Source: Leptolyngbya sp. NIES-2104
Lineage (GTDB): Bacteria > Cyanobacteriota > Cyanobacteriia > Leptolyngbyales > Leptolyngbyaceae
Length of the DNA: 64,000 nucleotides
Assembly: GCF_001485215.1 (NCBI RefSeq)
Contig: NZ_BBWW01000003.1
Coordinates: 124,001-188,000 of the forward strand
Reading direction: 5' to 3'
Positions 932-59,330 of the stretch are shown here, piece by piece (positions within the stretch are counted from its first letter, which is position 1; every line of letters starts with the position of its first letter). The position numbers and the translations under genes were made by a program. Under the pieces are notes generated by a model. It was not told where the DNA came from. It did no database searches and saw only the letters and a program-made list of their open reading frames with translations.

Positions 932-1177
932 CTTCAAGCAAAATTAATGACTCATACGATCGCAGATGATCTGGATTGGTCGGAGCGGCACTGGCAGAGA
1001 AATCATCTCAATCGCACAGAACTCGATATGCGAGACGTTGTTGTGGGGCTGAGAGAAAATGCGATCTCATGGGTGCGGCTGTATGTAACTGTTCAGTGTG
1101 TCAATGGAAGAACGCGGTCAACAGCTTGGGTTACAACCGCTCGATTAGGTACAGTTGTCATTCTCTATCCTAGCATT

Positions 1178-3630: not shown

Positions 3631-3669
3631 AAGTTTAGAGTTGTTCGTTGCAATCAAACATCATTTCAA

Positions 3670-4398
3670 ATGAGAACTATGCGCTACAAAATTGTTACTA
3701 CGAAAAACATTGTCAGCTTGTCGAGCGGCTTTCAGGAATCACACAAACGCGAAGTTGGAATTCCAAGAATGGGTTTGATTTACGCGCCCACAGGCTTTGG
3801 CAAAACCACTGCCGCTGCTTGGCTAGTCAATCGCGAAAATGGGGTGTATGTGCGAGCCGTTTCGCTCTGGTCGCCCTCAACCATGCTGATGGCAATGCTG
3901 GCAGAATTGTCGATCGCACCCCCACGGTATCCAGCCCAGATGTTACAAGCGATCGTTGATCAATTAAAGCTGAGCCAGCGTCCGCTTTTTATTGATGAAG
4001 CTGACTACCTGTTTCAAAACTCGCGCATGATCGATGCGGTACGAGATATTCACGATTTGACTGGGCTACCAGTGTGGTTGATTGGGTCACACAAACTCGA
4101 AAAGCAGCTTGCCCGACGCAAGATTATTGCCGGACGCATCTCACAGTGGGTGAACTTCTTGCCCTGTGATCTCGAAGATACCCAAAAGATTGCTCAGGAA
4201 CTGTGTCTGATTGAAGTACAAGCGGATTTGCTTGAACAACTACACAAAGCAGCCAAAGGAAGCATTCGTTTAATCACGGTGGGACTCAGCCGCATTGAAG
4301 CCTTTGCCCGCATCCACAAATGGGACAGCATCAATTCCACGCAATGGGCAGGGCTGCCCTTCTTCTTTACCCGGCAAGTGGACTATCAAGACGACTAA
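3670..4398 (+). CDS. MuB-type AAA+ ATPase, transposition target selector
   Basis: A 242-residue ATPase starting at ATG 3670, 40 bases after the transposase stop. Walker A is APTGFGKTTAA (about residues 39-49) and Walker B is PLFIDEADYL (about 105-114). A sensor-1-like Ser lies in WLIGSHKLEKQ. In Mu-like and Tn7-like elements such proteins bind target DNA as an ATP-dependent filament and activate or direct the transposase. The size and the position directly after the transposase fit this role. A hairpin terminator follows at 4407. Unlike its transposase partner, this gene appears intact. Confidence 0.85.
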   Translation: MRTMRYKIVTTKNIVSLSSGFQESHKREVGIPRMGLIYAPTGFGKTTAAAWLVNRENGVYVRAVSLWSPSTMLMAMLAELSIAPPRYPAQMLQAIVDQLKLSQRPLFIDEADYLFQNSRMIDAVRDIHDLTGLPVWLIGSHKLEKQLARRKIIAGRISQWVNFLPCDLEDTQKIAQELCLIEVQADLLEQLHKAAKGSIRLITVGLSRIEAFARIHKWDSINSTQWAGLPFFFTRQVDYQDD

Positions 4399-4406
4399 GG
4401 CGCGTT

Positions 4407-4423
4407 AAGCGCAGAGCGCTTTT
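4407..4423 (+). terminator. Hairpin after the ATPase gene
   Basis: AAGCGC-AGA-GCGCTT forms a perfect 6-bp stem with a 3-base loop, followed by further T residues, nine bases after the ATPase stop codon. It looks like a short intrinsic terminator or attenuator that would separate transposition genes from the three small genes downstream. Confidence 0.5.
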
Positions 4424-4459
4424 CCAAGGGAACCGCATTCTCTTCGCCACTGCAACATC

Positions 4460-4747
4460 ATGAATATCGAACGTCAAACGTTGATCGATCAATCCCTGAT
4501 TGGTGTGTTTTTATGCACGCAATTGCCGAGTGAGATTCCCACCTGGATCACGATCGAGAGGCGCATCGTAGAGCCTGGGTACTGGGGACAATTCGATTGG
4601 GACGACGAACACATTCAGAGCTTACTCGAACAGTCGAGCGAATGGCTCAACGTTTTACCTGTTTATCTTGCATCGCTCGGATTTGAAGGCGTTGAAGCAG
4701 TCGAGTGGAGAACGATCGATGAATATAGCTCATCCATGGAATCGTAA
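4460..4747 (+). CDS. Unknown small protein of the Mu-like element (1)
   Basis: A 95-residue acidic protein starting at ATG 4460. It is rich in Glu, Asp and Trp (for example WGQFDWDDEHIQ and VEAVEWRTIDEY) and has no signal peptide or membrane segment. Its stop is followed two bases later by the start of the next gene, so the two are probably translationally coupled. I do not recognise a domain. From context it may be an accessory or regulatory protein of the transposable element; its acidic character would allow a DNA-mimic or inhibitor role, but that is only a guess. Confidence 0.6.
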   Translation: MNIERQTLIDQSLIGVFLCTQLPSEIPTWITIERRIVEPGYWGQFDWDDEHIQSLLEQSSEWLNVLPVYLASLGFEGVEAVEWRTIDEYSSSMES

Positions 4748-19862: not shown

Positions 19863-19922
19863 TATCTTGATATCAAGATACTCAATATCAAGATTATGAT
19901 CAAGTAGTTTGATGTCAAGATA
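19863..19922. promoter_or_regulatory. MarR operators between transporter and regulator
   Basis: TATCTTGATATCAAGATA at 19863-19880 is a perfect 18-bp palindrome. A related copy, TTGATGTCAAGATA, lies at 19909-19922, and a half site ATATCAAGAT at about 19885. They lie in the 108 bases between the two divergent starts, the right arrangement for a MarR dimer repressing both genes. Confidence 0.7.
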
Positions 19923-38755: not shown

Positions 38756-39110
38756 TCAGTGAACTTTGGCAATGGCATCAACGCTCCCATCGTTAACAAG
38801 CCGCCCATCCTCCATGTACACAATGCGTGCAGCGAAGCTGGTCCCTGCGGGTGCGGCAATATCTAAAATTCAGTTATCATGTGTCACCAGCAAAATCGTG
38901 CAGCCCTGCTCTTTAGCGAGCTTTTGCATGAGTTCGACCGCATCACGTCCAGACTTCTTATCGAGTGCTGCGGTCGGCTCATCCGCTAAGACAATTTTGG
39001 GCTGGCTTACCAATGCACGAGCGATCGCAACTCTCTGTTTTTGTCCACCTGATAAGCTATCCGCATAATAATCGACTCGCTGCTGTAGCCCTACCGCTTG
39101 CAGCATTAGC
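38756..39110 (-). pseudogene. DevA-type ABC ATPase fragment
   Basis: The fragment reads VGLQQRVDYYADSLSGGQKQ (ABC signature), RVAIARALVSQPKIVLADEP (Walker B), TAALDKKSGRDAVELMQKLA, TILLVTHDN-stop-ILDIA, and after a short insertion RIVYMEDGRLV, ending near 38756. The two complete DevA proteins in the window are nearly identical over this part. Here the Walker A half is gone, joined directly to an SDR stump near 39110, and a TGA replaces the Arg codon after THDN. It is a third, dead DevA copy. Confidence 0.8.
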
Positions 39111-39620
39111 CAGAGCTTCAGATGTCCCTTCCAGGGCAAATTTAGCGCCACAGTAGAGGCTGCTTCCCCCAAATCCGACTAATCCTGCTGTAGATGACAT
39201 ATTTACAATGTGACCGTTGCCTTGCTGACGCATCACAGGCAAGACTGTTCGCATCAGACGAAGTGCCCCAAAGAAGTTGGTTTCAAAAAATTGGTGCATC
39301 TGATCATCACTCACTTCTTCGAGTGCGGCAATAAGTCCGTGTCCAGCATTGTTGACTAGCACATCAATTCGACCAAAGGTCGCGATCGCAGTATCAACGG
39401 CTGCTTGAATCTCTTGAGGCGATGTAACATCTAGACGAACCGCCTTTGCGGTTTCCGGATAGGGTTCAATCAAAGCACGAAGTTGCTCTGGTTCACGAGC
39501 AGTCGCAAGTAGGAAGTCGCCCTGCTTCAACACCGCTTCTGCTAGGGCACGCCCGAATCCGCTTGAGCATCCTGTAATCAACCAAACTTTAGAAGCGACG
39601 CGATTTTTATCTAAGTTCAT
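39105..39620 (-). pseudogene. Short-chain dehydrogenase, C-terminally truncated
   Basis: The gene starts at ATG 39620. Cofactor motif KVWLITGCSSGFGRALAEAV, then RIDVLVNNAGHGLIAALEEV, then the active site NMSSTAGLVGFGGSSLYCGA with Tyr and Lys in YCGAKFALEG. After GTSEALA (about 39105) the sequence runs into the DevA fragment in another frame and stops at 39057. The substrate-binding third is missing. It is divergent from a LysR regulator, which was probably its activator. Confidence 0.75.
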
Positions 39621-42649: not shown

Positions 42650-43267
42650 TCACGATCGCATCCCCGGACTGAGAAACTTAACCAGTTGTTCGGTCGTAGC
42701 TTGAATCTCAGATGGGTCGCTGCTTTTCAGTAACGCATGGGGTTGTCCCGCTTCAGTCTGAACTCGAACTAACACAGCAATCACCAAATCGAATTTCCAT
42801 CTCAGGTGCGATCGCGACTGCTCCGGCAGCACCCGTTGCAGCACGTCTAAAAATGCCTCAGTCGCCGCCGCAAATTCCTCGTTAGCAATACTCTGAATCG
42901 GTTTCGGTTCCGTGCGACATCGCCCCATAAACTGCGATCGCACGAATTGAGTCTCTTCATCTTGGCACAGCATTTCTAGATTCGGCTTCAAGAGCGCAGT
43001 TAGAATGTCCTCTACTGACGGCACTTCAGGCTTTGCTTTCAGGTCTGCTAACAGACTCAACTCTCGCTCCACGACTGGACGAGCCAATTGCGCGACCACG
43101 GCTCGAAACAACTCTTCCTTCGACCCAAAATGGTAGTGAACTGCTGCGAGGTTCACCCCCGCTTCACTTACCACATTGCGTAACGTGGTTCCAGCAAAGC
43201 CTTGTTCTGCAAATAGGCGTTGGGCAACAGTAATAATTTGCGTCTTGGTATCGGTTGAAGGAGTCAC
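42650..43267 (-). CDS. TetR-family regulator
   Basis: A 205-residue protein starting with GTG 43267. DNA-binding domain: IITVAQRLFAEQGFAGTTLR, NVVSEAGVNLAAVHYHFGSK, EELFRAVVAQLARPV; the C-terminal region resembles the CecR/YbiH-type TetR_C domain. Three related sites (a perfect palindrome, a second imperfect copy and an AAACGTTT core) lie in the gap to the divergent P450 gene, so it most likely represses itself and the P450-DevBCA-sigma operon. Confidence 0.88.
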   Translation of the reverse strand: MTPSTDTKTQIITVAQRLFAEQGFAGTTLRNVVSEAGVNLAAVHYHFGSKEELFRAVVAQLARPVVERELSLLADLKAKPEVPSVEDILTALLKPNLEMLCQDEETQFVRSQFMGRCRTEPKPIQSIANEEFAAATEAFLDVLQRVLPEQSRSHLRWKFDLVIAVLVRVQTEAGQPHALLKSSDPSEIQATTEQLVKFLSPGMRS

Positions 43268-43365
43268 GGTGTCTTATGTTGGTGCAAATTTGATCAATCG
43301 AAAATGGCTCAGTTGCCGAATGAATCCAGCTTATCAGCTAAATCAGATTCGCCCATTGCAATTAA

Positions 43366-43511
43366 TTCAAACGTATGTTTTAATCATTTCAAACGTTCGT
43401 TTGAATGAATTCAATAAATGATTCCAGTCTAACTCTTGAGATTTCGATTGTATAGACGGATTTTGAGAAGTTTCTTGAAGCGAGTCACTCAAGCTGAATG
43501 TTAAAACGTTT
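43366..43511. promoter_or_regulatory. TetR operators for the P450 operon
   Basis: TTCAAACGTTCGTTTGAA at 43388-43405 is a perfect 18-bp palindrome. TTCAAACGTATGTTTTAA at 43366-43383 is a second, imperfect copy 22 bases away. AAACGTTT at 43504-43511, 23 bases before the P450 start, is a third core. Together they place TetR sites at both divergent promoters. Confidence 0.7.
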
Positions 43512-43533
43512 GTCTAAATTTTAGGAGCCTGTC

Positions 43534-44805
43534 ATGTCTGCCGAAAATACCGAAGCGCTAAAGTGTCCGATCGAGCATTTGCGCTCCCCGGATCAGTTCA
43601 ATCCCTTCACACCTCAATTTCATCAAAACCCCCATGCTGCGTTTCTAGCAGCGCGACAAGAGCAACCCGTGTTCTTCAGTCCGGTGATGAATCTATGGGT
43701 GGTGACTCGCTATGATGACTTGAAGACAGTCATGAAAGACGATCGAACGTTTGCATCGGGTGGAGCGTTTTCGTCGGGTGCATTAGCTTCCCCGGAGGCG
43801 CTGCGAGTGCTAGGAGGGTTAGATCACCCAATTTTTCAGTACTCACTGGTCAATGCTGATCCACCGATTCATGCTCGGTTTCGCAGTAACTTCCAGCGTG
43901 CCTTTACCGCACGTCAAGTTGCGATTTTAGAACCGCAGATTCGTGAACTGATTCATCAGCTACTCATTGATCTGAGAACAAATCAGCGGGTTGAAGTAAT
44001 CAAAACCTTCTGCGATCCGTTACCGCTACTCACAATCTGTCGTTTGATGGGACTCCCGGACGAAGACGCACCCGACATCAAGCGCTGGGGCATCGATTAT
44101 ATTCGCGCCCAGATGCCGGGTTGGAGCATCGAAGAACAACAATTGATCGGACAAAGCATCGCTGACTACTATGACTATATGCTGAAGCAGGTCAAGTATT
44201 ATGCAACTCACCCAGCCGAGAATCTGATCAGTGGGTTGATTGAAGCGCGGCAGAACAACGATGAGCCATTAAGTGATGAAGAGATTGCGGGGTTGACCTG
44301 TAATCTAGTATTTGCGGGGCACGAAACCACAGCGGCACTTCTTGGAAACACACTGTATAGTCTCCTGAATCAACGCGAGCTTTGGAATTATTTTTGCAAA
44401 CACGTCGATCGCATTACTACTGCTGTCGATGAATTTATACGACATGGTGGTCCGGCGGTTGGACTGTATCGTCGTACCACTCATGATGTTGTACTGGGTG
44501 AGGTAACAATTCCCAAAGATTCTATGGTGTGGATTGCATACCTAGCGGGCAATCATGACCCAGAACAGTTTCCTAAGCCTGAACGCTTGGACTGCGATCG
44601 CCAGAATGCTGCGGGCAACCTCAGTTTTGGGCATGGCATTCATTACTGCGTGGGCGCACCGTTAGCCAAGCTCGAACTGCGCGTCGTAATCGAGGAGCTT
44701 ACCCAACACTATCCTAGTCTCCGCTTAGAACCTGGTCAGATGATTACACCGACCCCAAATTTCATGCTCCGCTCATATCAAGAGATGATTCTGGCGATCG
44801 ACTAA
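43534..44805 (+). CDS. Cytochrome P450
   Basis: A 423-residue soluble bacterial P450 from ATG 43534, preceded by TAGGAGCC. I-helix with the acid-alcohol pair: LVFAGHETTAALLGNTLYSL. K-helix ExxR: AVDEFIRHGGPAVGLYRRT. Haem loop: LSFGHGIHYCVGAPLAKLEL with the Cys ligand. It should hydroxylate or epoxidise a small hydrophobic molecule using electrons from ferredoxin; no dedicated redox partner is encoded nearby. The next gene starts 14 bases downstream and the genes up to the sigma factor are all in line, so the P450 probably acts with an exporter. Confidence 0.95.
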   Translation: MSAENTEALKCPIEHLRSPDQFNPFTPQFHQNPHAAFLAARQEQPVFFSPVMNLWVVTRYDDLKTVMKDDRTFASGGAFSSGALASPEALRVLGGLDHPIFQYSLVNADPPIHARFRSNFQRAFTARQVAILEPQIRELIHQLLIDLRTNQRVEVIKTFCDPLPLLTICRLMGLPDEDAPDIKRWGIDYIRAQMPGWSIEEQQLIGQSIADYYDYMLKQVKYYATHPAENLISGLIEARQNNDEPLSDEEIAGLTCNLVFAGHETTAALLGNTLYSLLNQRELWNYFCKHVDRITTAVDEFIRHGGPAVGLYRRTTHDVVLGEVTIPKDSMVWIAYLAGNHDPEQFPKPERLDCDRQNAAGNLSFGHGIHYCVGAPLAKLELRVVIEELTQHYPSLRLEPGQMITPTPNFMLRSYQEMILAID

Positions 44806-44818
44806 TTGGAGAAAGAAG

Positions 44819-45223
44819 ATGGCAAAAACATGGCAAGAAAAACTTAACGCGAAAAAACAGCCCAAGCTTCAAATCATGGAAAAACCAATGGCAGGAGTTT
44901 CCGCAGGCGGTACTCTCTTTTTTCCAACCCCACAGCTCATCAAAGAGTTTATCGACACGATTCCTGAAGGGCAATCAATGTTGATCGCGCAACTGCGTCA
45001 GCAACTCGCCCAAGCTCATCAAGGCGATAACAGTTGTCCACTTTCTACCTCTACCTCTGCTCGAATCGTCGCTGAAGCTGCCTGGGAAGAAATCGAAGCA
45101 GGCAAAGCTTCGGAACAAGTCACACCCTTCTGGCGCGTGATTGAACCCGATTCCAGCCTTGCTCAAAAGCTCGCTTGTGGCTCCGAATTTATTGAGGCGA
45201 TGCGGAAGCAAGAAGGAATTTAG
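44819..45223 (+). CDS. MGMT/Atl1-like hypothetical protein
   Basis: A 134-residue protein from ATG 44819, after GGAGAAAGAAG. It reads GGTLFFPTPQLIKEFIDTIP, then EGQSMLIAQLRQQLAQAHQG, NSCPLSTSTSARIVAEAAWE and VTPFWRVIEPDSSLAQKLAC. This order (an entry strand, a winged-helix-like part with a CP motif, then PFWRVI) resembles an uncharacterised family similar to the DNA-binding domain of O6-methylguanine methyltransferases and Atl1, as I recall it. The alkyl-accepting PCHR motif is absent, so no methyltransferase activity is expected. It is the second gene of the P450 operon. Confidence 0.55.
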   Translation: MAKTWQEKLNAKKQPKLQIMEKPMAGVSAGGTLFFPTPQLIKEFIDTIPEGQSMLIAQLRQQLAQAHQGDNSCPLSTSTSARIVAEAAWEEIEAGKASEQVTPFWRVIEPDSSLAQKLACGSEFIEAMRKQEGI

Positions 45224-45259: not shown

Positions 45260-46438
45260 ATGACGCAAAATCAGATAGTTCGCGCAAGATGGCTACCCGC
45301 TCGGAACTTTTTAATGCTTGGTGCTGTTGTGCTGCTGGGGGGACTGGGAGGATACACGTTCTGGAGATCGCAGTCAGCGCCTCAAGTGGCTCAACCAACA
45401 GTCACTCCCCAATTACAATCCGTCACTGCTTTGGGCTACCTAGAGCCACGTGGTCGAGTGATCAAACTATCTGCGCCCGCATCATCAGGGAGTACGAATC
45501 GGGTTGAACGATTGCTGGTTAAACAGGGCGATCGCGTTCGAGCTGGACAAATTATTGCGATTCTCGATGGTTACGATCGCCTACAAGCAGCACTCACGGA
45601 AGCTCAGGAACAAGTGAAAGTCGCTCAGTCAAATCTAGCTGTGGTGAAAGCAGGTGCGAAACAAGGCGAGGTGGATGCTCAACAGTCTGAAATTCAACGA
45701 TTAGCAGCACAGCGTCAAGGAGATGTCAAAGCGCAATCGGCAATCGTCGCGAGACTTCAAGCAGAATTACAGAACGCTGAGGCAGAAGCAAAACGGTTTA
45801 ATCTGCTTTATCAGCAAGGAGCGGTTTCAGCCTCAGTCCGTGACAATCGCGCTCTAACGTTATCCACGGCTCAACGCAATCTACAAGAAGCTCAGGTTGT
45901 GTTAGAGCGAATTCAATCGACCCGATCGCCGGAACTAAATGCCGCTCAAGCAACCCTCGATCGCATTGCAGAAGTGCGTCCGGTGGATGTTGAGGCAGCA
46001 CAATCACAAGTCGATCGAGCGATCGCAATTGTTCAACAAGCTAAATCACAGCTTGACTTAGCCTCAGTTCGCGCTCCGAAAGGTGGAGTCGTGCTGGAAG
46101 TTCACACTCGTCCTGGGGAATTGATTGCGCCAGAAGGCATTGTGGAATTAGGGGATACCGAGCAAATGACTGCGCTGATAGAGGTCTATGAAACTGAAAT
46201 CGAGAAGGTAAAACTGGGACAATCCGCAAAACTATTTTCGGATAGCTTTTCTGAACCGCTTTTCGGCACGGTGAGCGAAGTTGGTGTAAAGGTCAAACGT
46301 CAGAACGTCATTAATTCTGATACTTCGGCAAACATCGATGCGCGAGTCGTTGAGGTGCGAGTGCAGCTTAATTCGGATTCAATGCAGAAAGTCGCTGGAC
46401 TGACAAATTTACAGGTGACTGGAGAGATTCAGCAATGA
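45260..46438 (+). CDS. devB: DevB-type membrane fusion protein
   Basis: A 392-residue HlyD-family protein from ATG 45260. An N-terminal anchor helix (LMLGAVVLLGGLGGYTFW) is followed by a lipoyl half (SVTALGYLEPRGRVIKLSAP), a long coiled coil (residues about 95-240), the second lipoyl half (LASVRAPKGGVVLEVHTRPG) and a beta-barrel (MTALIEVYETEIEKVKLGQS). DevB-type proteins link the DevC/DevA pump to a TolC-like outer-membrane channel. The stop overlaps the DevC start by four bases (ATGA). The second copy is at 54438-55616. Confidence 0.9.
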   Translation: MTQNQIVRARWLPARNFLMLGAVVLLGGLGGYTFWRSQSAPQVAQPTVTPQLQSVTALGYLEPRGRVIKLSAPASSGSTNRVERLLVKQGDRVRAGQIIAILDGYDRLQAALTEAQEQVKVAQSNLAVVKAGAKQGEVDAQQSEIQRLAAQRQGDVKAQSAIVARLQAELQNAEAEAKRFNLLYQQGAVSASVRDNRALTLSTAQRNLQEAQVVLERIQSTRSPELNAAQATLDRIAEVRPVDVEAAQSQVDRAIAIVQQAKSQLDLASVRAPKGGVVLEVHTRPGELIAPEGIVELGDTEQMTALIEVYETEIEKVKLGQSAKLFSDSFSEPLFGTVSEVGVKVKRQNVINSDTSANIDARVVEVRVQLNSDSMQKVAGLTNLQVTGEIQQ

Positions 46439-47628
46439 CAATTCTCTCGTTCAAACGTCGCTCTTGGGAGTTCTTACGCGATCGTACTCCGCTCGGTTGG
46501 CTGCAACTAAAGAAAAACAAAGGACGATTACTCGTTGCAGTGGCTGGAATTGGGTTTGCAGACTTACTGATGTTTGCTCAGTTAGGGATTCAAGATGCGT
46601 TGTTTGATAGCAATACCTTACTCAATCGAGGCATGGATGCGGACATTGTGATTCGCAGCGCTCAATATCGGGATTTGAATCTAGCAGACACTTTACCGCG
46701 TCGTCGGCTGTATCAAGTCCAATCAATCCCAGGTGTGCAATCTGCTGAGCCATTGTATGTCGATCGAGTTGTGTGGAGAAATCCCCAAACTCGCCGTAGA
46801 ACTCAATTAACACTGGTGGGGCAAAGTCTCGATCGTCCTGTCTTGAACTTTCCAGAGGTCAATCAGAATCTCGACAAGCTGAAACAACCGGATATGTTTT
46901 TATTCGATCGCTTAACGCGCGGCGACTACAGCCAAGTCATCGAACAATCCAACCAAGGGCAAAAAATCGAAACCGAGATTGGTCGTCGAACGATTCGGAT
47001 TGCTGGCTTGTTTGCGCTCGGAGCCTCTTTTGCTACCGATGGAACTCTAATCACAAGTTCAGAGAACTTCTTGCGATTCTTTCCACAACGCAGTGCTGGA
47101 CAAGTCACATTAGGGTTAGTCAAAGTTAAACCGGGTATAAACCCAGATCGAGTGCTGGCTCAAATCAGAGCAATTTTGCCACCCGATACGATCGCGTCAA
47201 CGAAAGCGGAATTCGTCGAGTTAGAGAAAGCATATTGGCAGAAAACGACTCCGATCGGGGTTGTCTTCACCTTTGGAACCATCATGGCGTTTGTGGTTGG
47301 CATTGTGATTGTGTTTCAGATCCTTTCAACGGATGTGAATGAGCACATGAGCGAGTATGCCACCTTCAAAGCGATGGGATACCGCGATCGCTATTTACTG
47401 CTCATCGTGTTTGAAGAGGCTGTAATTCTAGCAACGCTGGGATTTGTTCCCGGTCTTGCTTTAGCATTGGGTCAATACGCTCTCATTCGCAATGTGGCAG
47501 CTTTACCAATCAGTATGACCTTGACGCGGTTTGTTCTGGTCTTTGTGCTGACGTTAGTGATGTGTACGGTATCGGGCATGATTGCCACGCGCAGAACTCG
47601 ATCGGCTGACCCAGCGGATAGTTTCTAA
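46435..47628 (+). CDS. devC: DevC-type ABC permease
   Basis: A 397-residue MacB/FtsX-like permease from ATG 46435, overlapping devB. The first helix is in RLLVAVAGIGFADLLMFAQL, followed by a large periplasmic domain (about residues 70-260) and three C-terminal helices: VVFTFGTIMAFVVGIVIVFQ, LLIVFEEAVILATLGFVPGL and FVLVFVLTLVMCTVSGMIAT. DevC forms the inner-membrane part of a DevBCA exporter, known in Anabaena for glycolipid export and in other cyanobacteria for stress-related export. DevA starts nine bases downstream. Confidence 0.9.
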   Translation: MTILSFKRRSWEFLRDRTPLGWLQLKKNKGRLLVAVAGIGFADLLMFAQLGIQDALFDSNTLLNRGMDADIVIRSAQYRDLNLADTLPRRRLYQVQSIPGVQSAEPLYVDRVVWRNPQTRRRTQLTLVGQSLDRPVLNFPEVNQNLDKLKQPDMFLFDRLTRGDYSQVIEQSNQGQKIETEIGRRTIRIAGLFALGASFATDGTLITSSENFLRFFPQRSAGQVTLGLVKVKPGINPDRVLAQIRAILPPDTIASTKAEFVELEKAYWQKTTPIGVVFTFGTIMAFVVGIVIVFQILSTDVNEHMSEYATFKAMGYRDRYLLLIVFEEAVILATLGFVPGLALALGQYALIRNVAALPISMTLTRFVLVFVLTLVMCTVSGMIATRRTRSADPADSF

Positions 47629-47636
47629 GAGAACTC

Positions 47637-48344
47637 ATGAATCAAGGATCTAGAGCAGTTCAGTCTGCGATCGTCGTTGAGCAATTGAATCATTTCTTTG
47701 GTACAGGTGAATTGCGAAAGCAAGCTTTGTTTGAGATCAATTTGTCGATCGCATCAGGTGAAATTGTCATTCTCACCGGACCATCAGGATCTGGAAAAAC
47801 GACTTTACTTTCGTTGATGGGTGGTCTACGCTCTCCTCAATTGGGTAGTCTTCGCATTTTGGATACAGAATTAGTCGGGGCAGCAAAACAAGTTGCGGTA
47901 GAAGCACGTCGCTCCTGTGGATACATCTTTCAGGCACACAACTTACATAGCAGTCTCACGGCTCAAGAAAACGTGATGATGGGGCTGGAAGTTCACGGAA
48001 GCTACTCGCGTTTAGAACGGCGCGATCGAGCCATCGAAATGCTATCCCTGGTCGGTTTAGAACAGCGAACACAGTATTATCCAGAAAGCTTATCCGGTGG
48101 ACAAAAGCAAAGGGTTGCCATTGCTCGTGCTTTAGTCAGTCGTCCGAAGATTGTTCTAGCTGATGAACCGACTGCTGCACTCGACAAACAATCCGGTCGC
48201 GATGTTGTTGACCTGATGCAAAAACTGGCTAAGGAACAAGGCTGCACGATTCTGATGGTGACGCATGATAACCGCATTCTCGATGTTGCCAATCGCATCG
48301 TCTACATGGAAGATGGCAAATTGGTGAAGGCTCTAGAGAGTTGA
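47637..48344 (+). CDS. devA: DevA-type ABC ATPase
   Basis: A 235-residue ATPase from ATG 47637. Walker A: VILTGPSGSGKTTLLSLMGG. Q-loop: CGYIFQAHNLHSSLTAQENV. Signature: LSGGQKQRVAIARALVSR. Walker B: PKIVLADEPTAALDKQSGRD. H-loop: CTILMVTHDNRILDVANRIV. It is a MacB/LolD-like ATPase that energises DevC. Its stop lies five bases before the sigma-factor ATG at 48350, so the sigma factor is translated from the same transcript. Confidence 0.93.
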   Translation: MNQGSRAVQSAIVVEQLNHFFGTGELRKQALFEINLSIASGEIVILTGPSGSGKTTLLSLMGGLRSPQLGSLRILDTELVGAAKQVAVEARRSCGYIFQAHNLHSSLTAQENVMMGLEVHGSYSRLERRDRAIEMLSLVGLEQRTQYYPESLSGGQKQRVAIARALVSRPKIVLADEPTAALDKQSGRDVVDLMQKLAKEQGCTILMVTHDNRILDVANRIVYMEDGKLVKALES

Positions 48345-48349
48345 AGCAA

Positions 48350-49285
48350 ATGGACACAACAAAGCTGTATCTGAACGAGATTGGCAGGGCGGCACGTTTA
48401 ACACCTGAAGAAGAAATTCTGTACGGGCAACAGGTTCAACAGTTAGAGAAGCTATATGAGATTCAGCAGCAGTTGTCGCAACGATTAGAACGAGCAGCAA
48501 CATTAGAAGAATGGCAGAATGCAGCCAATCTGTCAGGTCATCAGTTACAGCAAGTCATTTCAAACGGTGAACGAGCGAAGCGTAAAATGATCGAAGCAAA
48601 CTTACGCTTAGTTGTTTCGATCGCACAACGCTACCAGCACCGCCACCTCGAACTTCAAGATTTGATTCAAGAAGGCAATATCGGCTTACAGCGAAGTGTT
48701 GATAAATTTGATCCAGGCAAGGGGTATCGATTTTCGACGTATGCGTATTGGTGGATTCGGCAAGCGATTACTAGAGCGATCGCGCTTAAAAGCCGTGCGA
48801 TTCGACGACCCCTTCATCTCACTGAAAAACTCAACGCGATTCAGAAAACTCAGCAAGCCTTGGCGCAAAAACTCGGTCGCATGGCAACCTTGAACGAAGT
48901 TGCCCAGGAGTTATCAATCTCCATGTTGAAGCTTCGAGAGTTGTTGATGGCTAACCGCACTATAATTTCGCTGGATCAGTCGATCGGCAAAGACCAAGAA
49001 GGCAGTTGGAGCGATCTGCTGCCTGATGAAGCCTCAAATTCAGAAGATGAGGTCACGCGCTCAATGCTACAGCAAGATCTCGTCAGCTTACTTGGAATGC
49101 TACCCACAAAGCAGCGTCAAGTGATTACGCTGAGATTTGGACTAGAAGACGGTCAAGCATTAAGTTTGGCTCAAGCGAGTCGTTGTTTGAACTGTAGTCG
49201 AGAAACAGTACGATTACTGGAGAAAGCAGCAATCAAAACGCTACAGCAACACAAACCACGGTTACAAGAGTACATTGTCGGTTGA
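48350..49285 (+). CDS. RpoD-like (group 2-type) sigma factor, left module
   Basis: A 311-residue sigma-70 protein; ATG 48350 (MDTTKLYLNEIGRAARLTPE) follows the DevA stop by five bases. Region 1.2 is at the start. Region 2: [60 protein letters not shown] (2.3-2.4). Region 3 and region 4.2 (QALSLAQASRCLNCSRETVR) follow. It lacks a long N-terminal region 1.1. It resembles cyanobacterial SigB/C/D-type factors, used for stress responses. It is the last gene of the P450-DevBCA operon and overlaps the convergent AI-2E permease by 24 bases. Confidence 0.92.
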   Translation: MDTTKLYLNEIGRAARLTPEEEILYGQQVQQLEKLYEIQQQLSQRLERAATLEEWQNAANLSGHQLQQVISNGERAKRKMIEANLRLVVSIAQRYQHRHLELQDLIQEGNIGLQRSVDKFDPGKGYRFSTYAYWWIRQAITRAIALKSRAIRRPLHLTEKLNAIQKTQQALAQKLGRMATLNEVAQELSISMLKLRELLMANRTIISLDQSIGKDQEGSWSDLLPDEASNSEDEVTRSMLQQDLVSLLGMLPTKQRQVITLRFGLEDGQALSLAQASRCLNCSRETVRLLEKAAIKTLQQHKPRLQEYIVG

Positions 49286-50684: not shown

Positions 50685-51620
50685 TCAAATACTGATGTAA
50701 GCTTTTAGGTGTGAGTCGCACTGTCGTAGTGTCGAAATTGCTTGCTTTTCGAGTAATCTGACGGTTTCGAGACTGCACTGAAGTTTTTGACTCACTTGCC
50801 TTAAGCTCATCTCTTCTCCCGTTTCCAATCCAAATCGTAGAGACAATACTCTCTGTTGCTGAGATGGGAGGGTTGCCAGAAGTTGTGTTAAGTCGTCTTT
50901 CAAGCACACATCAACCAGCAAGACTTCGGGTAGAGGGTGATCGTCTTCGATCACATTCTCTAATTCGTACTCATGTTCAGGATCGATCGTTTCGTTGAGC
51001 GATCGCAACGGTTGAGCTGCACAAAGATACGATCGCACTGTTTCAGCCGGAAGATTGACCTGTTGAGCGATCGCTTCAAGAGAGGCAGGTTTTCCAATTT
51101 GCTGAATGATCTGCTGCTGTGCTTTTTTGATTCTATTGATTTGGTCGAGTGTTTGCAGCGGAAGCCGAATCGCACGACTTTTTTGAGCGATCGCTCTCGT
51201 AATTGCTTGCCAAATCCACCAGTAGGCATAGGTTGAAAAGCGGTAGCCTTTAGTGGGGTCAAATTTCTCAACCGCTTTCTGCAACCCGATGTTACCTTCT
51301 TGAATCAAATCGAGTAAGTCGAGGTTGCGCCCAGTATGGTGTTTGGCAATGTTGACCACGAAGCGCAAATTTGCCTCAATCATGCGTCGTTTAGCAATTT
51401 CTCCGGTCATCAAAGCTTTCAGCAAATCGGACGAAGAAAGATGGACAGCAGTACACCATTCGAGTTGAGTAGGTGAACGTTGAAGTTCTTTCGTTAAGCG
51501 ATCGCGCACCTGAAGCAAGGACTGTAACTGTTGAACTTGTTGCCCGTACTGTACTTCTTCAATTCGAGTCAGACGGCGAATTCGACCAATTTGATTGAGA
51601 TAAACCGCAACTAAATCCAT
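50685..51620 (-). CDS. RpoD-like (group 2-type) sigma factor, right module
   Basis: A 311-residue sigma-70 protein from ATG 51620. Region 2: [60 protein letters not shown]. In region 2.4 the Arg that nearly all RpoD-like proteins have in WWIRQ is Trp (WWIWQ); this position helps melt the -10 element. Region 3 and 4.2 ([20 protein letters not shown]) are normal. The two sigma factors of the window are clear paralogues but only partly alike. It is transcribed in the same direction as the right DevBCA set, 349 bases downstream of its DevA, with a small membrane-peptide ORF in between. Confidence 0.92.
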
Positions 51621-51650
51621 CGTTATACCTCCAGAGTTCAGAATTATTAA

Positions 51651-51758
51651 TTACTGCGAGATGCCATAGTGAGCAATCCCACCTGTGATTGCCGCTGCTG
51701 CAACGACGAGCAACAAGGTTTGTTGGTTCGTGAGCTTAGGTAACAATGCAAAACTCAT
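51651..51758 (-). CDS. Very small membrane peptide, 35 residues
   Basis: ATG 51758 to TAA 51651. It reads MSFALLPKLTNQQTLLLVVA and then AAAITGGIAHYGISQ: a short amphipathic head, one strongly hydrophobic helix (TLLLVVAAAAITGGIA) and a polar tail. It ends 30 bases before the right sigma-factor start. No ribosome site is obvious. The clean peptide shape and its position support a real gene, but no family is recognised. Confidence 0.5.
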   Translation of the reverse strand: MSFALLPKLTNQQTLLLVVAAAAITGGIAHYGISQ

Positions 51759-51858
51759 GAATTTAATATGCGGAAAAATCAGTTGATCGAACGCTAATCA
51801 TCATATGAAACGAGTTTGCTGTTGTCATGAAGCAATACTCCCAAAGTTTAATTGGTGC

Positions 51859-51884
51859 AAATGACTCACTGCAGTGGGAGATTT
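51859..51884. promoter_or_regulatory. Palindrome upstream of the sigma-factor unit
   Basis: CACTGCAGTG (51867-51876) is a perfect 10-bp palindrome inside the longer imperfect dyad running from AAAT at 51859 to ATTT at 51881. It lies about 100 bases upstream of the 35-residue peptide gene and 85 bases after the DevA stop (51969). It could be an operator for the sigma-factor unit or a terminator for DevA. Confidence 0.45.
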
Positions 51885-51968
51885 GTCCTACTGAGAATCA
51901 ATTGCCGTGGCTCTTCAAGTGATTGCTTGACAAATTCATTCTCACAGCCATCCTCAAACAGTCGATAG

Positions 51969-52718
51969 CTATCGAACTTTTGCAGCCGCATCAGGATGAT
52001 CAGCAAGGCGACCATCTTCCATGTAAACAATGCGATCGGCAACATCTAAGATCCGATTGTCATGAGTCACAAGTAAAATGGTGCAACCTTGCTCTTTCGC
52101 GAGTCTTTGCATAATCTCAACTACGTCTCGACCCGATTTCTTATCCAGTGCGGCAGTCGGCTCATCTGCTAAGACGATTTTGGGATAACTGACCAACGCT
52201 CTTGCGATCGCGACTCTCTGTTTCTGTCCGCCCGATAAATTATCCGCATAGTAGTCAATGCGTTCACCCAGTCCTACGGCTCTCAACATCTCAGATGCGA
52301 GTTCATCTAAGTTTTGCCCCTCGTAGCGATCGTCGTGTAGCTCCAGCGACATTCGCACATTCTGTTTTGCCGTTAGGAACGTAAGTAAGTTGTGGGCTTG
52401 AAAGATGTATCCAATGTTTGATCGCAACCGCGTTAAGTCTTTTTTGTTAGCTCCTAAAATCTCCTGCCCTAGAATCTTGAGGCTTCCTTCTTGCGCAGAT
52501 CGTAATCCACCCATGAGCGTCAGCAGCGTTGTTTTACCAGAACCCGAAGGACCTGTCATGATCACAATCTCACCGGGTTGAATCGCCAAATTGATATCAA
52601 ACAATGCTTGCTTTCGCAAACTGCCTTCTCCAAAGTAATGATTGAGATTCTGAGCAACGATCGCGGGAGGCGAAGGTTGAATCAGTTGAGTTTGAACCAC
52701 TTGATCAGATTGAAACAT
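51969..52718 (-). CDS. devA: DevA-type ABC ATPase (right module)
   Basis: A 249-residue ATPase from ATG 52718, with Walker A VIMTGPSGSGKTTLLTLMGG, Q-loop IGYIFQAHNLLTFLTAKQNV, signature LSGGQKQRVAIARALVSYPK, Walker B IVLADEPTAALDKKSGRD and H-loop CTILLVTHDNRILDVADRIV. It is closely related to the left DevA and to the fragment at 38756. The tail is ADHPDAAAKVR. It is preceded by the DUF2721 gene (27 bases). Confidence 0.93.
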   Translation of the reverse strand: MFQSDQVVQTQLIQPSPPAIVAQNLNHYFGEGSLRKQALFDINLAIQPGEIVIMTGPSGSGKTTLLTLMGGLRSAQEGSLKILGQEILGANKKDLTRLRSNIGYIFQAHNLLTFLTAKQNVRMSLELHDDRYEGQNLDELASEMLRAVGLGERIDYYADNLSGGQKQRVAIARALVSYPKIVLADEPTAALDKKSGRDVVEIMQRLAKEQGCTILLVTHDNRILDVADRIVYMEDGRLADHPDAAAKVR

Positions 52719-52745
52719 GATGATTTTCCTAATTCATCAAACGGT

Positions 52746-53243
52746 TTAGACTCCACCCTTCACTAATGTCATGATCCATTTCATTTCGGTGTGAATGGCG
52801 CGATGCGATACATGAACCTCAAAACTTGTCAAAATTACACTGAGCGATAATGAGCCAGTTCCTAGTAAAAACAAGATCAGCGCGATCGTAGCAACACTCA
52901 TTGCATCAGATAGCCTCGCGATCGCAATCACAAACATCGATAAAAGGAACAACAAAATTGCGCCGTAAATCATCAAAGCGGTGTATTGCAGCAAGCGATG
53001 ACGATGAGCGAGATTGATCAGTTGTCGATCGATCATCGAAACCGCTTGATCATAAAGACGAACCGGGACATCATTGCTTGCTAAGAACTCTGCTCGTTCT
53101 CGAACTAAAGCTCTGATGCGATTCCCAATCTCACCGTAGCGCCCCAAAATCCCGTTCAGCACGAGCGTACAGGTGGAAACCATCACCGTTGGAGCAATAA
53201 TCATTTGAATGCTTTGTGCGACTGCTTCAATGCTCACAAACAC
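52746..53243 (-). CDS. DUF2721 membrane protein
   Basis: A 165-residue protein starting with GTG 53243. Three helices: IQMIIAPTVMVSTCTLVLNG, LQYTALMIYGAILLFLLSMF and MSVATIALILFLLGTGSLSL. A charged segment between (NRIRALVRERAEFLASNDVP) is typical of the family. DUF2721 proteins are short membrane proteins of unknown role in cyanobacteria. Its place inside the right devC-devA operon (four bases after devC) suggests a part in that exporter; the left module has no equivalent. Confidence 0.8.
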   Translation of the reverse strand: MFVSIEAVAQSIQMIIAPTVMVSTCTLVLNGILGRYGEIGNRIRALVRERAEFLASNDVPVRLYDQAVSMIDRQLINLAHRHRLLQYTALMIYGAILLFLLSMFVIAIARLSDAMSVATIALILFLLGTGSLSLSVILTSFEVHVSHRAIHTEMKWIMTLVKGGV

Positions 53244-53246
53244 TCC

Positions 53247-54428
53247 TCAAAAGATATCAGCCGGATCAGCAGACTGGAGTTTTCGTAGTGCGACTCCACC
53301 CGAAGCCGTACACATCGCGATCGTTAATAGTAAAACCAGCGTGGCACGTCCCCACGTCATGTCAATTGGTAGCAGGGTTGCAGAAGCCGCAATCACGTAA
53401 AACCCAGTAGACAGTAAAAATCCAGGGATAAATCCTAGTACCGCTAGAATGAGCGACTCTTGAATCAGAATTCCGACCAAATAGCGATCGCTGTATCCCA
53501 TTGCTTTCAGCGTGGCGTACTCAGACAAGTGATCCGAAACATCAGAGTAAAGAATCTGGTAAACAATCACAATGCCCACAATGAACCCGATCACCGTTCC
53601 GAATCCAAAGATAAATCCGGTCGGCGTACTTGATGACCAATACTGTTTTTCGCGGTCTCCAAACTCTTTGCGCGTCAGCACCAGAACATCTTGCGGCAAA
53701 TAAGCCCGAATCGCCGCTTGAACTTGCTCAAGGTTTGCACCCGGTTTTAGTCGGATCACACCGACATCGTACTGATCGGCTTGGCGCTCAGGAAACAACC
53801 GGAGAAACGTCGAGTCGCTGGTAATCATCGTGCCGTCTGAGCCAAATGAAACCCCCAACGTAAACAGTCCTGCAACCCAAAGCTGCTTGTCGTTAACTTG
53901 GGTTGAAACAAGTCCTCCAGGCTGATAGACCGCATTGATATCGCCAAACTCAGCCCGACTTGCACGATCGAACAAAACGCGATCGAGCGGTTTAATCGCC
54001 TCAATCTGATTTGCAATTTCTGGTAATTGAAATACGTTTTCTGTGGGATTGACTCCGATCGTCAATGCGGTTCGTTCTTGCTGTGGATTTTGCAAATTTC
54101 GCCAAGTCGCCCGACCAAAATACAATCCTGAAATGGATTGAACTTGCTCAAATGATGCGGCTTGATACAATCGCTCTCTCGGAAACGGTTTCAGTGAATT
54201 CAACGCCTCAGAAATCGGATTGATGACAAACAGATCTCCATGCAGAGAATCCTGAGTCATTGCGGCAGAATTGTAAAGCGTCTCGTTTAAGCCCATCTGA
54301 ACGAACATCAATAGATCTGCAAAAGCAATACCTGCGAGTGCGACTGCAAGCCGATTCTTTTCGCGTTTGACTTGCAGCCAAGCTAACGGAGTTTTACGCA
54401 AGAGCTTAGAAAGTTTAGATAGCATCAT
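53247..54428 (-). CDS. devC: DevC-type ABC permease (right module)
   Basis: A 393-residue permease from ATG 54428. It begins LRKTPLAWLQVKREKNRLAV, then the first helix ALAGIAFADLLMFVQMGLNE, a periplasmic domain, and the C-terminal helices TGFIFGFGTVIGFIVGIVIV, LVGILIQESLILAVLGFIPG and LVLLLTIAMCTASGGVALRK. It is a paralogue of the left DevC with the same ends (SADPADIF here, SADPADSF there). It starts nine bases after the DevB stop. Confidence 0.9.
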   Translation of the reverse strand: MMLSKLSKLLRKTPLAWLQVKREKNRLAVALAGIAFADLLMFVQMGLNETLYNSAAMTQDSLHGDLFVINPISEALNSLKPFPRERLYQAASFEQVQSISGLYFGRATWRNLQNPQQERTALTIGVNPTENVFQLPEIANQIEAIKPLDRVLFDRASRAEFGDINAVYQPGGLVSTQVNDKQLWVAGLFTLGVSFGSDGTMITSDSTFLRLFPERQADQYDVGVIRLKPGANLEQVQAAIRAYLPQDVLVLTRKEFGDREKQYWSSSTPTGFIFGFGTVIGFIVGIVIVYQILYSDVSDHLSEYATLKAMGYSDRYLVGILIQESLILAVLGFIPGFLLSTGFYVIAASATLLPIDMTWGRATLVLLLTIAMCTASGGVALRKLQSADPADIF

Positions 54429-54437
54429 TCACCTGCA

Positions 54438-55616
54438 CTAATCGAGTAAAATTCGAGCTTTCACCTGCAAATTGGTGAGTGCTGCCGCTCGTTGGCTGCT
54501 TTCGGGCGTGAGTTGGACTCTCACGCGCACCACCCGCTGTTCTAAGTTCTCTCCAGGCGTTCCACTGGTGACTTGCTGACGCTGCACTTGTGGTTCAATG
54601 AGGAAAACTGTTCCTCGAAGCTCCCCACTTAGCGAGTCACTTTCGACGATCGCGTTTTGTCCCACTCGAATCTTTTCCACATCACTTTGATAGACTTCTG
54701 CGACCACTTGCATCGTGTCGGTTGCTCCGAGATCTGCAATGCCACTATCACCAACCATTTCTCCGGCTCTTGCATGAACATCGAGGATCTTGCCTACAAT
54801 GGGTGATCGAATCTCAGCCTTTTCGAGATCAGTCTCGGCACGTTGCAGCACTGCGATCGCGCTATTCACTTCCGTTTGAGCCGCTTGCACATCGGTGGGG
54901 CGAATTTCAGCAATCCGCTCTAAGTTCGCTTGCGCTTGTTGGATTTGTACTCGGAGTGTATCAGCGGTGCGATCGCGCGTGGCAAGGGTCGCATTCAATT
55001 GAGCTTGAGCCGTTTGCAGTGCTAATCGCTTTTGGTCAAACTGTGACGCAGAAATAGCTCCTGCTTGTCGTAATTGTTGAAATCGATCGTATTCAGATTG
55101 AGCGTTCTTCACCGTGGCTTGGCGCTCTGCGATCGTCGCTTGCTGCGTCGCAATCTCGCCCTGTAATTCTGCTTGTAATCGAGCAATCTCGGCACGTTGG
55201 GCTTCAATCTCGCCCCTTCTAGCACCGGCTTTCACCTGTGCTAATTTCGCTTGAGCAACTTGAACTTGTTCTTTGGCTTTCCGCACTTCATCTTGCAACT
55301 GATCGCGTGAATCCATCACGGCAATGATCTGATTTTTGCTGACCCGATCGCCTCGTTTAATCAACAGTTGAGCCACTCGATCGTTTCTCAGACTTGCTGA
55401 AGTAGACACTTTCACGACCTCCGAAGACGGCTGTAGCTCACCGAGAGCAGCCACTTGACGTGGTGGGGGCGGCGGTTGCTCAGTCTGTTCTTGACGGTTC
55501 GGCGCAAACTGAGAAACTGCGTAAAATGTGGAAGCTCCAACGATCGTGGTTGCTCCAATGAGTAGTGGAATCAACCAGCGTTTCGGCAACTTGGATAAAG
55601 ACAAACGGTTCATCAT
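54438..55616 (-). CDS. devB: DevB-type membrane fusion protein (right module)
   Basis: A 392-residue HlyD-family protein from ATG 55616. Anchor helix WLIPLLIGATTIVGASTFYA, a Pro-rich stretch (QTEQPPPPPRQVAALGELQP), first lipoyl half, long coiled coil with SQFDQKRLALQTAQAQLNAT, second lipoyl half EIRSPIVGKILDVHARAGEM and beta-barrel MQVVAEVYQSDVEKIRVGQN. It matches the left DevB in length exactly. It is the first gene of the right operon and divergent from a MarR regulator across shared operators. Confidence 0.9.
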   Translation of the reverse strand: MMNRLSLSKLPKRWLIPLLIGATTIVGASTFYAVSQFAPNRQEQTEQPPPPPRQVAALGELQPSSEVVKVSTSASLRNDRVAQLLIKRGDRVSKNQIIAVMDSRDQLQDEVRKAKEQVQVAQAKLAQVKAGARRGEIEAQRAEIARLQAELQGEIATQQATIAERQATVKNAQSEYDRFQQLRQAGAISASQFDQKRLALQTAQAQLNATLATRDRTADTLRVQIQQAQANLERIAEIRPTDVQAAQTEVNSAIAVLQRAETDLEKAEIRSPIVGKILDVHARAGEMVGDSGIADLGATDTMQVVAEVYQSDVEKIRVGQNAIVESDSLSGELRGTVFLIEPQVQRQQVTSGTPGENLEQRVVRVRVQLTPESSQRAAALTNLQVKARILLD

Positions 55617-58679: not shown

Positions 58680-59330
58680 TCAACTTGCTCTAAATTCTTT
58701 GGGAGTCACTCCGACCAATTGACGAAAAAGCCTCGTAAACGAACTGTGATTGTTGAAGCCGACGGCAAAGGCAATTTCAGAGATCGACATCTGCGTATTA
58801 AGTAATAATTGCTTGGCACGATCGATCCGGCAGCGTGTGAGGTATTGATGCGGAGCCATACCTGTTGACTGTTTGAACAACCGAGAGAAATGGTACTGGC
58901 TCAGGTTTAAGACATTCGCCAGTTCTGACAAGCTCAAGTCTTGATCGAGACGATCGAGGATGTAATCAGATACTTTCTGCAATTGAGGTTTGGACAATTG
59001 ACTATCATCGCGATCACGAGGTTGCCAGACTGCATATTGCTTGAGTAGATGAATCACTAACCCAGTCGCTAAAGATTCACCAAAGATTCGACCTGCTGGG
59101 TACTGTGCCTCGATATCTGCTTTCAGTGCGAGTCCAATTTGTTCGATTAAGCGATCGCGAATTCCGACTTGTGGAATTAATTCCACTCGTTTCAGTCGAA
59201 CAGTCTCCTGGGCAATCTGCTCAAAAAACTTGGGAGAAAAGCCAAGTAGGGAAAAGTCGCCCGCCCCATACCAGTGTGATGAGTACTGAACACCAGCTGG
59301 AATCAATAGCAGTTCACCCGGCTTGCAAGT
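58680..59330 (-). pseudogene. AraC-family regulator, N-terminally truncated
   Basis: The frame is open from just after a TGA near 59345: CTCKPGELLLIPAGVQYSSH, then WYGAGDFSLLGFSPKFFEQI, and through both C-terminal helix-turn-helix motifs: LSLSELANVLNLSQYHFSRL and ISEIAFAVGFNNHSSFTRLF, ending TPKEFRAS at 58680. The DNA-binding end is complete. About 75 N-terminal residues of a normal AraC protein of this type are missing, and no ATG precedes the preserved part; TTG 59306 would give 208 residues. The cut is near 59345. Confidence 0.65.

Follow-up and report, generated by a model that had tools for sequence, protein, structure and literature searches.

A probable TetR-family switch at a cytochrome P450 gene upstream of a sigma-carrying DevBCA exporter operon in a cyanobacterium

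A run of genes for a TetR-family repressor, a cytochrome P450, a small protein, a DevBCA exporter and a sigma factor raises the question of whether these genes work together and, if so, on what. The run lies in a 64,000-nucleotide stretch of DNA (the window), which is part of a 263,280-base contig in a genome of 6.39 Mb. A first-pass annotation had proposed that a ligand is sensed by TetR, modified by the P450 and exported by DevBCA, with the sigma factor amplifying the response. All of the genes that it had named are present in the window, and the chain of sensing, modification and export through TetR, P450 and DevBCA is plausible.

Layout of the locus

The features of the locus are as follows.

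42650-43267, minus strand: TetR-family repressor with TetR_N and TetR_C_30 domains (domain search; putative PsrA-like DNA reading)
43356-43384, plus strand: proposed P450 promoter, TTGCAA-17-TTTAAT, with operator O1 in its spacer
43366-43383: predicted operator O1, TTCAAACGTATGTTTTAA, self-complementary at 14 of 18 positions
43388-43405: predicted operator O2, TTCAAACGTTCGTTTGAA, 22 bp from O1, self-complementary at 16 of 18 positions
43502-43518: weak third site, TAAAACGTTTGTCTAAA, with core AAACGTTT, near the P450 start codon
43534-44805, plus strand: cytochrome P450 with intact catalytic motifs (PF00067 above cut-off; motif alignment)
44819-45223, plus strand: 134-aa protein, called MGMT-like in the first-pass annotation
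45260-46438, plus strand: devB, membrane fusion protein (above its curated NCBIfam cut-off)
46435-47628, plus strand: devC, permease (above its curated NCBIfam cut-off)
47637-48344, plus strand: devA, ATPase (above its curated NCBIfam cut-off)
48341-49285, plus strand: sigma-70 factor of a putative exporter-linked clade; its start may be the ATG at 48350

The TetR and P450 genes are separated by 266 bp. All the genes from the P450 to the sigma factor are on the plus strand, with successive gaps of 13, 36, -4, 8 and -4 bp, so the idea that the P450 runs on without a gap holds only loosely: 13 bp separate it from the 134-aa gene, and a further 36 bp separate that gene from devB. Elsewhere in the window (947-4398, plus strand) a Mu-type integrase spread across two overlapping frames is followed by a small AAA gene, possibly the relic of a Tn7-like transposon.

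A predicted tandem operator in the proposed P450 promoter

The three sites proposed between TetR and the P450 are present and related to each other. O2 had been described as a perfect 18-bp palindrome, which we reject in the strict sense because its perfect 8-bp arms flank a TT, giving the 16 of 18 listed above. Strictly perfect palindromes occur elsewhere in the window (18 bp at 19863-19880 and 16 bp at 59171-59186), so palindromy by itself says little. We therefore looked at rarity instead. An exact-match pattern drawn from O1 and O2, and hence circular for its own locus, has three matches in the 6.39-Mb genome, where 0.008 are expected from base composition. Two of these are O1 and O2; since the pattern was built from them, its rarity elsewhere is the informative part. 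The third falls inside a peptide-synthetase ORF with NRPS condensation and AMP-binding domains, and as it is the sole other exact operator we rejected a wider regulon for TetR in this genome. When compared to a consensus that was written after inspection of related loci, the 22-bp O1-O2 pair has one mismatch in total, a score that none of 300 dinucleotide shuffles of the region reached (the best had 9). Operator specificity at the TetR-P450 locus is strong, and the main pair is not a product of chance.

Single sites with up to 3 mismatches are mildly enriched in the window (16 found against 8.35 expected; 3 of 100 shuffles were equally high), so it is by its position that the third site is a candidate. 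Each of the five loci where this TetR accompanies a P450 has weak candidate sites (2 to 4 mismatches) that start 17-36 nt ahead of the P450 gene. A genome-wide enrichment at up to 3 mismatches (242 matches on both strands, compared to 102 for a reversed control) was set aside: the pattern is almost its own reverse complement, and words resembling CGATCG look, by eye, to be common in this genome.

The proposed P450 promoter does not appear in the output of a generic promoter scan, which performed at chance level (7 promoter-like sites with 6.7 expected, and 9 terminator-like sites with 6.3 expected). It emerges from comparison between loci: a TTGNNN-17-TTTAAT promoter (or a close variant) together with O1, at up to 3 mismatches, is found in 20 of the 26 intergenic regions beside related TetR genes, one locus (L126) contributing two regions. 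O1 begins exactly 11 nt after the start of the TTG in all 20. So placed, O1 fills the spacer of the proposed promoter and overlaps the -10 element, a position from which we infer repression by blocking of RNA polymerase. The regions that lack the register are those of L128 and L140, where O1 has 7 and 6 mismatches, and of L136, L141, L150 and L151, which have no such promoter. Among the five P450 loci four keep it, and L128 keeps the gene pair without O1 in register. A second operator at 22 bp is seen in the window and in many of the loci with RND efflux genes described below; its distance is 19 bp in L124 and L125, and it is absent in L126. Comparison of the sequences establishes the predicted operator, shows that it lies between -35 and -10, and links it to this TetR lineage; for TetR binding, repression and release, we rely on inference.

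A TetR protein predicted to read DNA like PsrA

The best PDB sequence match of the TetR protein is 2fbq (E = 9.2e-17), whose title names PA3006, and the recognition segment is AGVNLAAVNYHFGSK in 2fbq and AGVNLAAVHYHFGSK in the window TetR. PA3006 is PsrA, with the recognition sequence G/CAAAC(N2-4)GTTTG/C, according to the available part of PMC10304680; the available part of PMC13104628 gives the same site and adds that PsrA is released by oleic acid. O2 contains CAAAC-GTTC-GTTTG and so fits the published PsrA operator. On the other hand, the PsrA equivalog model (from Vibrio, NF053516) scores 100.5 bits on the window protein against a cut-off of 300. By these sequence comparisons TetR appears to read DNA like PsrA, and we use "PsrA-like" for DNA reading and not for identity with PsrA.

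An AlphaFold model of TetR (pLDDT 91) has NicR2 as its nearest fold (Z = 21.3, 2.3 Å over 186 residues), followed by PA3006 (Z = 17.8, 2.8 Å, 195 residues) and FadR (Z = 17.8, 2.6 Å, 178 residues). These matches bear on what the switch might sense. One reading of the locus is a lipid circuit, in which TetR would sense a long-chain fatty acid or acyl-CoA, the P450 would hydroxylate a fatty acid, and DevBCA would export an acyl lipid. The PsrA-type operator and recognition helix speak for it, as does the oleic acid response of PsrA (PMC13104628, in the part available), but the fold ranking, in which NicR2, a regulator of aromatic degradation, comes ahead of both PA3006 and FadR, speaks against it.

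Relatives of the switch face efflux or P450 genes

We searched 388 genomes of the class for relatives of TetR, at a cut-off of E = 1e-25 and scoring no more than 8 candidates from any one genome, and found them at 26 places in 22 genomes. The upstream side could be read at 25 loci, including the window; one (G346:C680), with its upstream side cut off, was left out. TetR faces an HlyD-type membrane fusion gene of RND-type efflux in 16 of the 25, with an AcrB-type partner in 14. The RND label comes from a Pfam check in one locus (L137) and from BLAST clustering in the others; L131 ends at a contig edge, and the fusion gene of L149 is interrupted. In five loci (the window, L124, L125, L126 and L128) TetR faces a P450, across an intervening small gene in the case of L126, and in the remaining four (L139, L150, L151 and L091) it faces something else or a cut contig.

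In an unrooted tree of 25 TetR sequences, the P450-linked proteins form one side of a branch with support of 100/100, together with L091, one of four rows entered without a group; L149 was entered as RND and confirmed afterwards. The tree is consistent with an exchange of targets under an old TetR switch, probably from RND efflux to P450, a direction that is our interpretation because the trees are unrooted. Two loci show further arrangements. The TetR of L091 (133-1889), which is 77% identical and comes with an exact O1, lies opposite a short ORF that may represent a further type of target. At 77% identity, this ORF matches the initial portion of a 4Fe-4S protein encoded in L264, close to a relative of the 134-aa protein. 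In L126 the small gene (4151-4729) is of YdeI/OmdA type, and this gene and the P450 each have an operator in promoter register upstream.

A P450 search of the same 388 genomes (1e-80, with up to 4 candidates scored per genome) gave six matches: the window, four proteins of 67-73% identity, and one of 38% that by eye lies beside a MarR-type gene. All five P450 genes of at least 67% identity in the 388 genomes, window included, adjoin this TetR. Two relatives of at least 70% were found among named genomes, Phormidium tenue FACHB-886 (taken as L128) and Pseudanabaena ULC068bin1 (taken as L126). P450 enzymes carry as signature motifs ExxR, an AGxET I-helix and the cysteine of the heme loop, and these are invariant in the five aligned proteins. 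Control of the P450 by TetR, as first proposed, is borne out by the gene pairing in 5 of 5 loci and the operator register in 4 of 5, and is well supported by sequence comparison because the operator pair is rare, the promoter register is shared, and the P450-facing TetR proteins form a clade.

The nearest solved relatives of the P450 are class-I enzymes, for example vitamin D and macrolide hydroxylases, many of them from antibiotic pathways. By their listed names these are not known fatty-acid enzymes, which again weighs against a lipid circuit. They speak for a tailoring role, in which TetR, the P450 and the 134-aa protein would complete and then export a secondary metabolite produced by genes at another place in the genome; NRPS genes are present in it. 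Domain searches recognised no biosynthetic gene among the immediate neighbours of the P450, however, and in its sister loci the switch is found opposite efflux systems, so we consider natural-product tailoring quite improbable.

A small protein that usually follows the P450

In four of the five P450 loci the 134-aa gene comes after the P450 and, judged by this conservation, appears to belong to the P450 unit there. L128 has a methyltransferase and no 134-aa gene, and in G113 the 134-aa gene is preceded by a methyltransferase and interrupted by an in-frame stop. The protein is also found in two genomes without this P450; a collection of plasmids gave no relatives at 1e-3. The case for calling it MGMT-like is weak. 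The match to the Pfam MGMT family (PF01035) has an E-value of 0.039 and 14.2 bits, under the gathering score of 27. The active-site cysteine of MGMT sits in a PCHR motif, and the stretch that we took as its equivalent reads TPFWR, with no cysteine, in all three aligned copies. A PDB search gave a single match, to an unrelated protein (E = 0.31), and the AlphaFold model (mean pLDDT 49.9) was too poor for a fold search. By sequence, the label is not justified.

The DevBCA exporter and its place behind the P450

The window proteins DevB, DevC and DevA score 332.3, 437.8 and 351.3 bits, above cut-offs of 129, 290.35 and 295.8, respectively. Their membership of the P450 unit is supported locally, by the same strand and a 36-bp gap, but DevBCA and the sigma gene follow the P450 in only 1 of the 5 P450 loci, that of the window. 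Two of the other contigs end soon after the last unit gene or P450 (1.4 kb beyond it in L125 and 4.7 kb in L128), so the absence of DevBCA there applies only to those stretches. We found no paper on DevBCA together with a P450 in cyanobacteria.

The genome has other DevBCA genes. A second operon (devB-devC-DUF2721-devA, then a sigma gene of the exporter-linked clade) occupies 50685-55616 of the window on the minus strand, convergent with the first, and the 3' remnant of a devA gene (38870-39172) overlaps a short SDR ORF (39057-39620), both on the minus strand, resembling a recombination scar. A chromosomal run in the same genome (L143, 8054-14958, minus strand) reads TetR-devB-GNAT-sigma-devC-devA-P450. 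Its TetR and P450 do not cluster with those of the window, so we rejected the idea that the chromosomal P450 is a copy of the window gene. Each of the eight genus genomes has the same type of chromosomal devC, set in a TetR-devB-(GNAT)-devC-devA cluster (in G021 the TetR and devB parts are off the contig). The chromosomal P450 (471 aa; no PDB match at 1e-40) follows devA in our strain only, one of six readable clusters in the genus.

These data bear on the simplest alternative to a joint function, which is that TetR controls only the P450 and the 134-aa protein, and that devBCA-sigma is an independent operon, brought to its place behind them by recombination on a busy contig. The four P450 loci without DevBCA downstream argue for it, as do the second devBCA-sigma operon and the devA remnant nearby. 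It has to be set against the common strand and 36-bp gap of the P450 unit and devB, the lack of any plus-strand terminator-like site between P450 and devB in the generic scan, and the second P450/DevBCA/sigma run on the strain's own chromosome. We regard such chance neighbourhood as less likely than not. Since the P450 unit lies directly upstream of DevBCA on a plasmid-sized contig, induction of the P450 probably reads through into the exporter.

A sigma factor clade associated with exporters

The window sigma factor has sigma-70 regions 1.2, 2, 3 and 4. In the chromosomal clusters of the genus, a sigma gene lies between devB or GNAT and devC in 5 of the 8, the G021 copy being partial, and the other 3 lack it. 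The window protein is 68-69% identical to four of these cluster sigmas, and at most 55% identical to the others among the matches listed. Four other genomes of the genus have close relatives of it in their devBCA clusters and, within the limits of our searches, lack this TetR and P450.

We made a tree of 41 sigma sequences, in which the genomes outside the genus are represented only by 26 loci, the best matches to the window sigma; the partial L218 was not entered, and L246-L248 were dropped as duplicates. Eight sigmas form a clade (support 99/99), and seven of them are in exporter operons, six with DevBCA and one with a heavy-metal RND pump, although the tree carries a long-branch warning that includes the two window sigmas, L245 and L219. 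The six DevBCA-linked sigmas are themselves a clade within the eight (99/95). L245, from our own genome (contig C2), is just upstream of, and on the same strand as, genes for a CusB-type fusion protein and a CusA/CzcA heavy-metal RND pump, with a metal ATPase and a CDF transporter nearby; the eighth member, L219, has no exporter beside it. On the same contig C2, L268 (3089-13953) covers a related sigma gene immediately before the CusB-type and CusA/CzcA genes, and close to them a metal P-type ATPase and a CDF transporter. At 1e-8 and within about 1.5 kb, we found no DevA, DevB or DevC beside the 26 sigmas from outside the genus, nor beside the sigmas of our own genome once four were set aside (both window sigmas, L245 and the sigma of the chromosomal DevBCA run). 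The other DevBCA loci of the genus that we examined (L144, L220-L227) have no sigma of the exporter-linked kind.

The sigma tree pairs the window sigma with the chromosomal one, whereas the DevC tree pairs the window's second DevC with the chromosomal DevC (98/96) and places the first DevC apart. Because of this conflict, we rejected the copying of a single devBCA-sigma cassette as the whole story, and conclude that at least two DevBCA lineages acquired the sigma, either through transfer or through recombination of adjacent cassettes. The proposal that the sigma factor amplifies the TetR response had only adjacency in its favour, and beyond that we found evidence neither for nor against it; relatives of the sigma track exporters and not TetR or P450. 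Its distribution suggests that it probably serves the exporter instead.

A proposed function for the locus

Our best explanation, to which we give a slightly better than even chance as a whole, is a PsrA-like TetR switch on the P450 with read-through into DevBCA and a protective role. TetR bound to the tandem operator inside the P450 promoter would block RNA polymerase until released by a small hydrophobic ligand. The target of this TetR and promoter is RND-type efflux in relatives, and in one TetR clade it is a P450, usually with the 134-aa protein. Induction of the P450 would read through into DevBCA; the P450 would oxidise a toxic hydrophobic compound; DevBCA would export the compound or its product, the job done in relatives by the RND pump; and the sigma factor would serve the exporter.

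Inducible handling of a toxic hydrophobic compound is thus the likely function. A protective role is our best guess because relatives have efflux under the same switch, because certain DevBCA paralogues confer drug resistance in Anabaena (PMC8277102, in the part available), and because no biosynthetic gene was recognised nearby. The lipid circuit is its main rival. It gains from the export of glycolipid by the heterocyst DevBCA of Anabaena, described in the same part of that source, and from a cyanobacterial RND system that exports free fatty acids (PMC4841976, in the part available), which may or may not correspond to the RND genes here. In view of the fold ranking and the P450 relatives, we consider the lipid circuit unlikely.

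A broader account, in which the switch exchanged its RND target for a P450, the pump function was rebuilt by a sigma-carrying DevBCA, and a class of RpoD-like exporter-operon sigmas was joined to unrelated exporters, is rather unlikely to be right in full. If it were, one stretch of DNA would unite a sensor, an oxidase, an exporter and an exporter-linked sigma, and this sigma class would have been joined to two DevBCA lineages and a heavy-metal RND pump. Regulatory rewiring could then be tested in a case where the regulated gene changes and the switch stays, and where the operator of a cyanobacterial TetR lineage is predicted precisely; and an RpoD-like sigma clade found mostly inside exporter operons would offer a simple route to an exporter's own transcription. 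Among the literature matches listed, with subscription papers mostly outside their scope, no title concerned either the rewired switch or the exporter-operon sigma.

Comparison with known systems

Divergent TetR/RND efflux operons, a layout that we take to be the AcrR/AcrAB arrangement, have a counterpart in most of the sister loci, where TetR faces its pump; in the window it faces a P450, and DevBCA lies further downstream. With PsrA of Pseudomonas (PA3006) the window TetR shares a near-identical recognition segment and the operator half-sites. It differs in scoring far below the cut-off of the sole PsrA equivalog model that it matched (Vibrio) and in having a tandem operator, and whereas the reported targets of PsrA are beta-oxidation genes (PMC13104628, in the part available), TetR proteins of the window type face RND or P450 genes. 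The window exporter resembles other cyanobacterial DevBCA (MacB-type) ABC exporters in that all three subunits exceed the curated cut-offs, and differs in having a P450 unit upstream and a sigma factor downstream. That sigma factor has the regions of the cyanobacterial group-2 sigma factors, but it scores slightly under the cut-off of TIGR02997, the model for cyanobacterial RpoD/SigA-type sigmas (369.8 against 384.5 bits), and belongs to a separate clade that is mostly in exporter operons. A sigma dedicated to an efflux operon is known in CnrH of Cupriavidus, which is of the ECF type and has anti-sigma partners. In both cases the sigma gene lies inside an efflux operon, but the window sigma is RpoD-like where CnrH is ECF.
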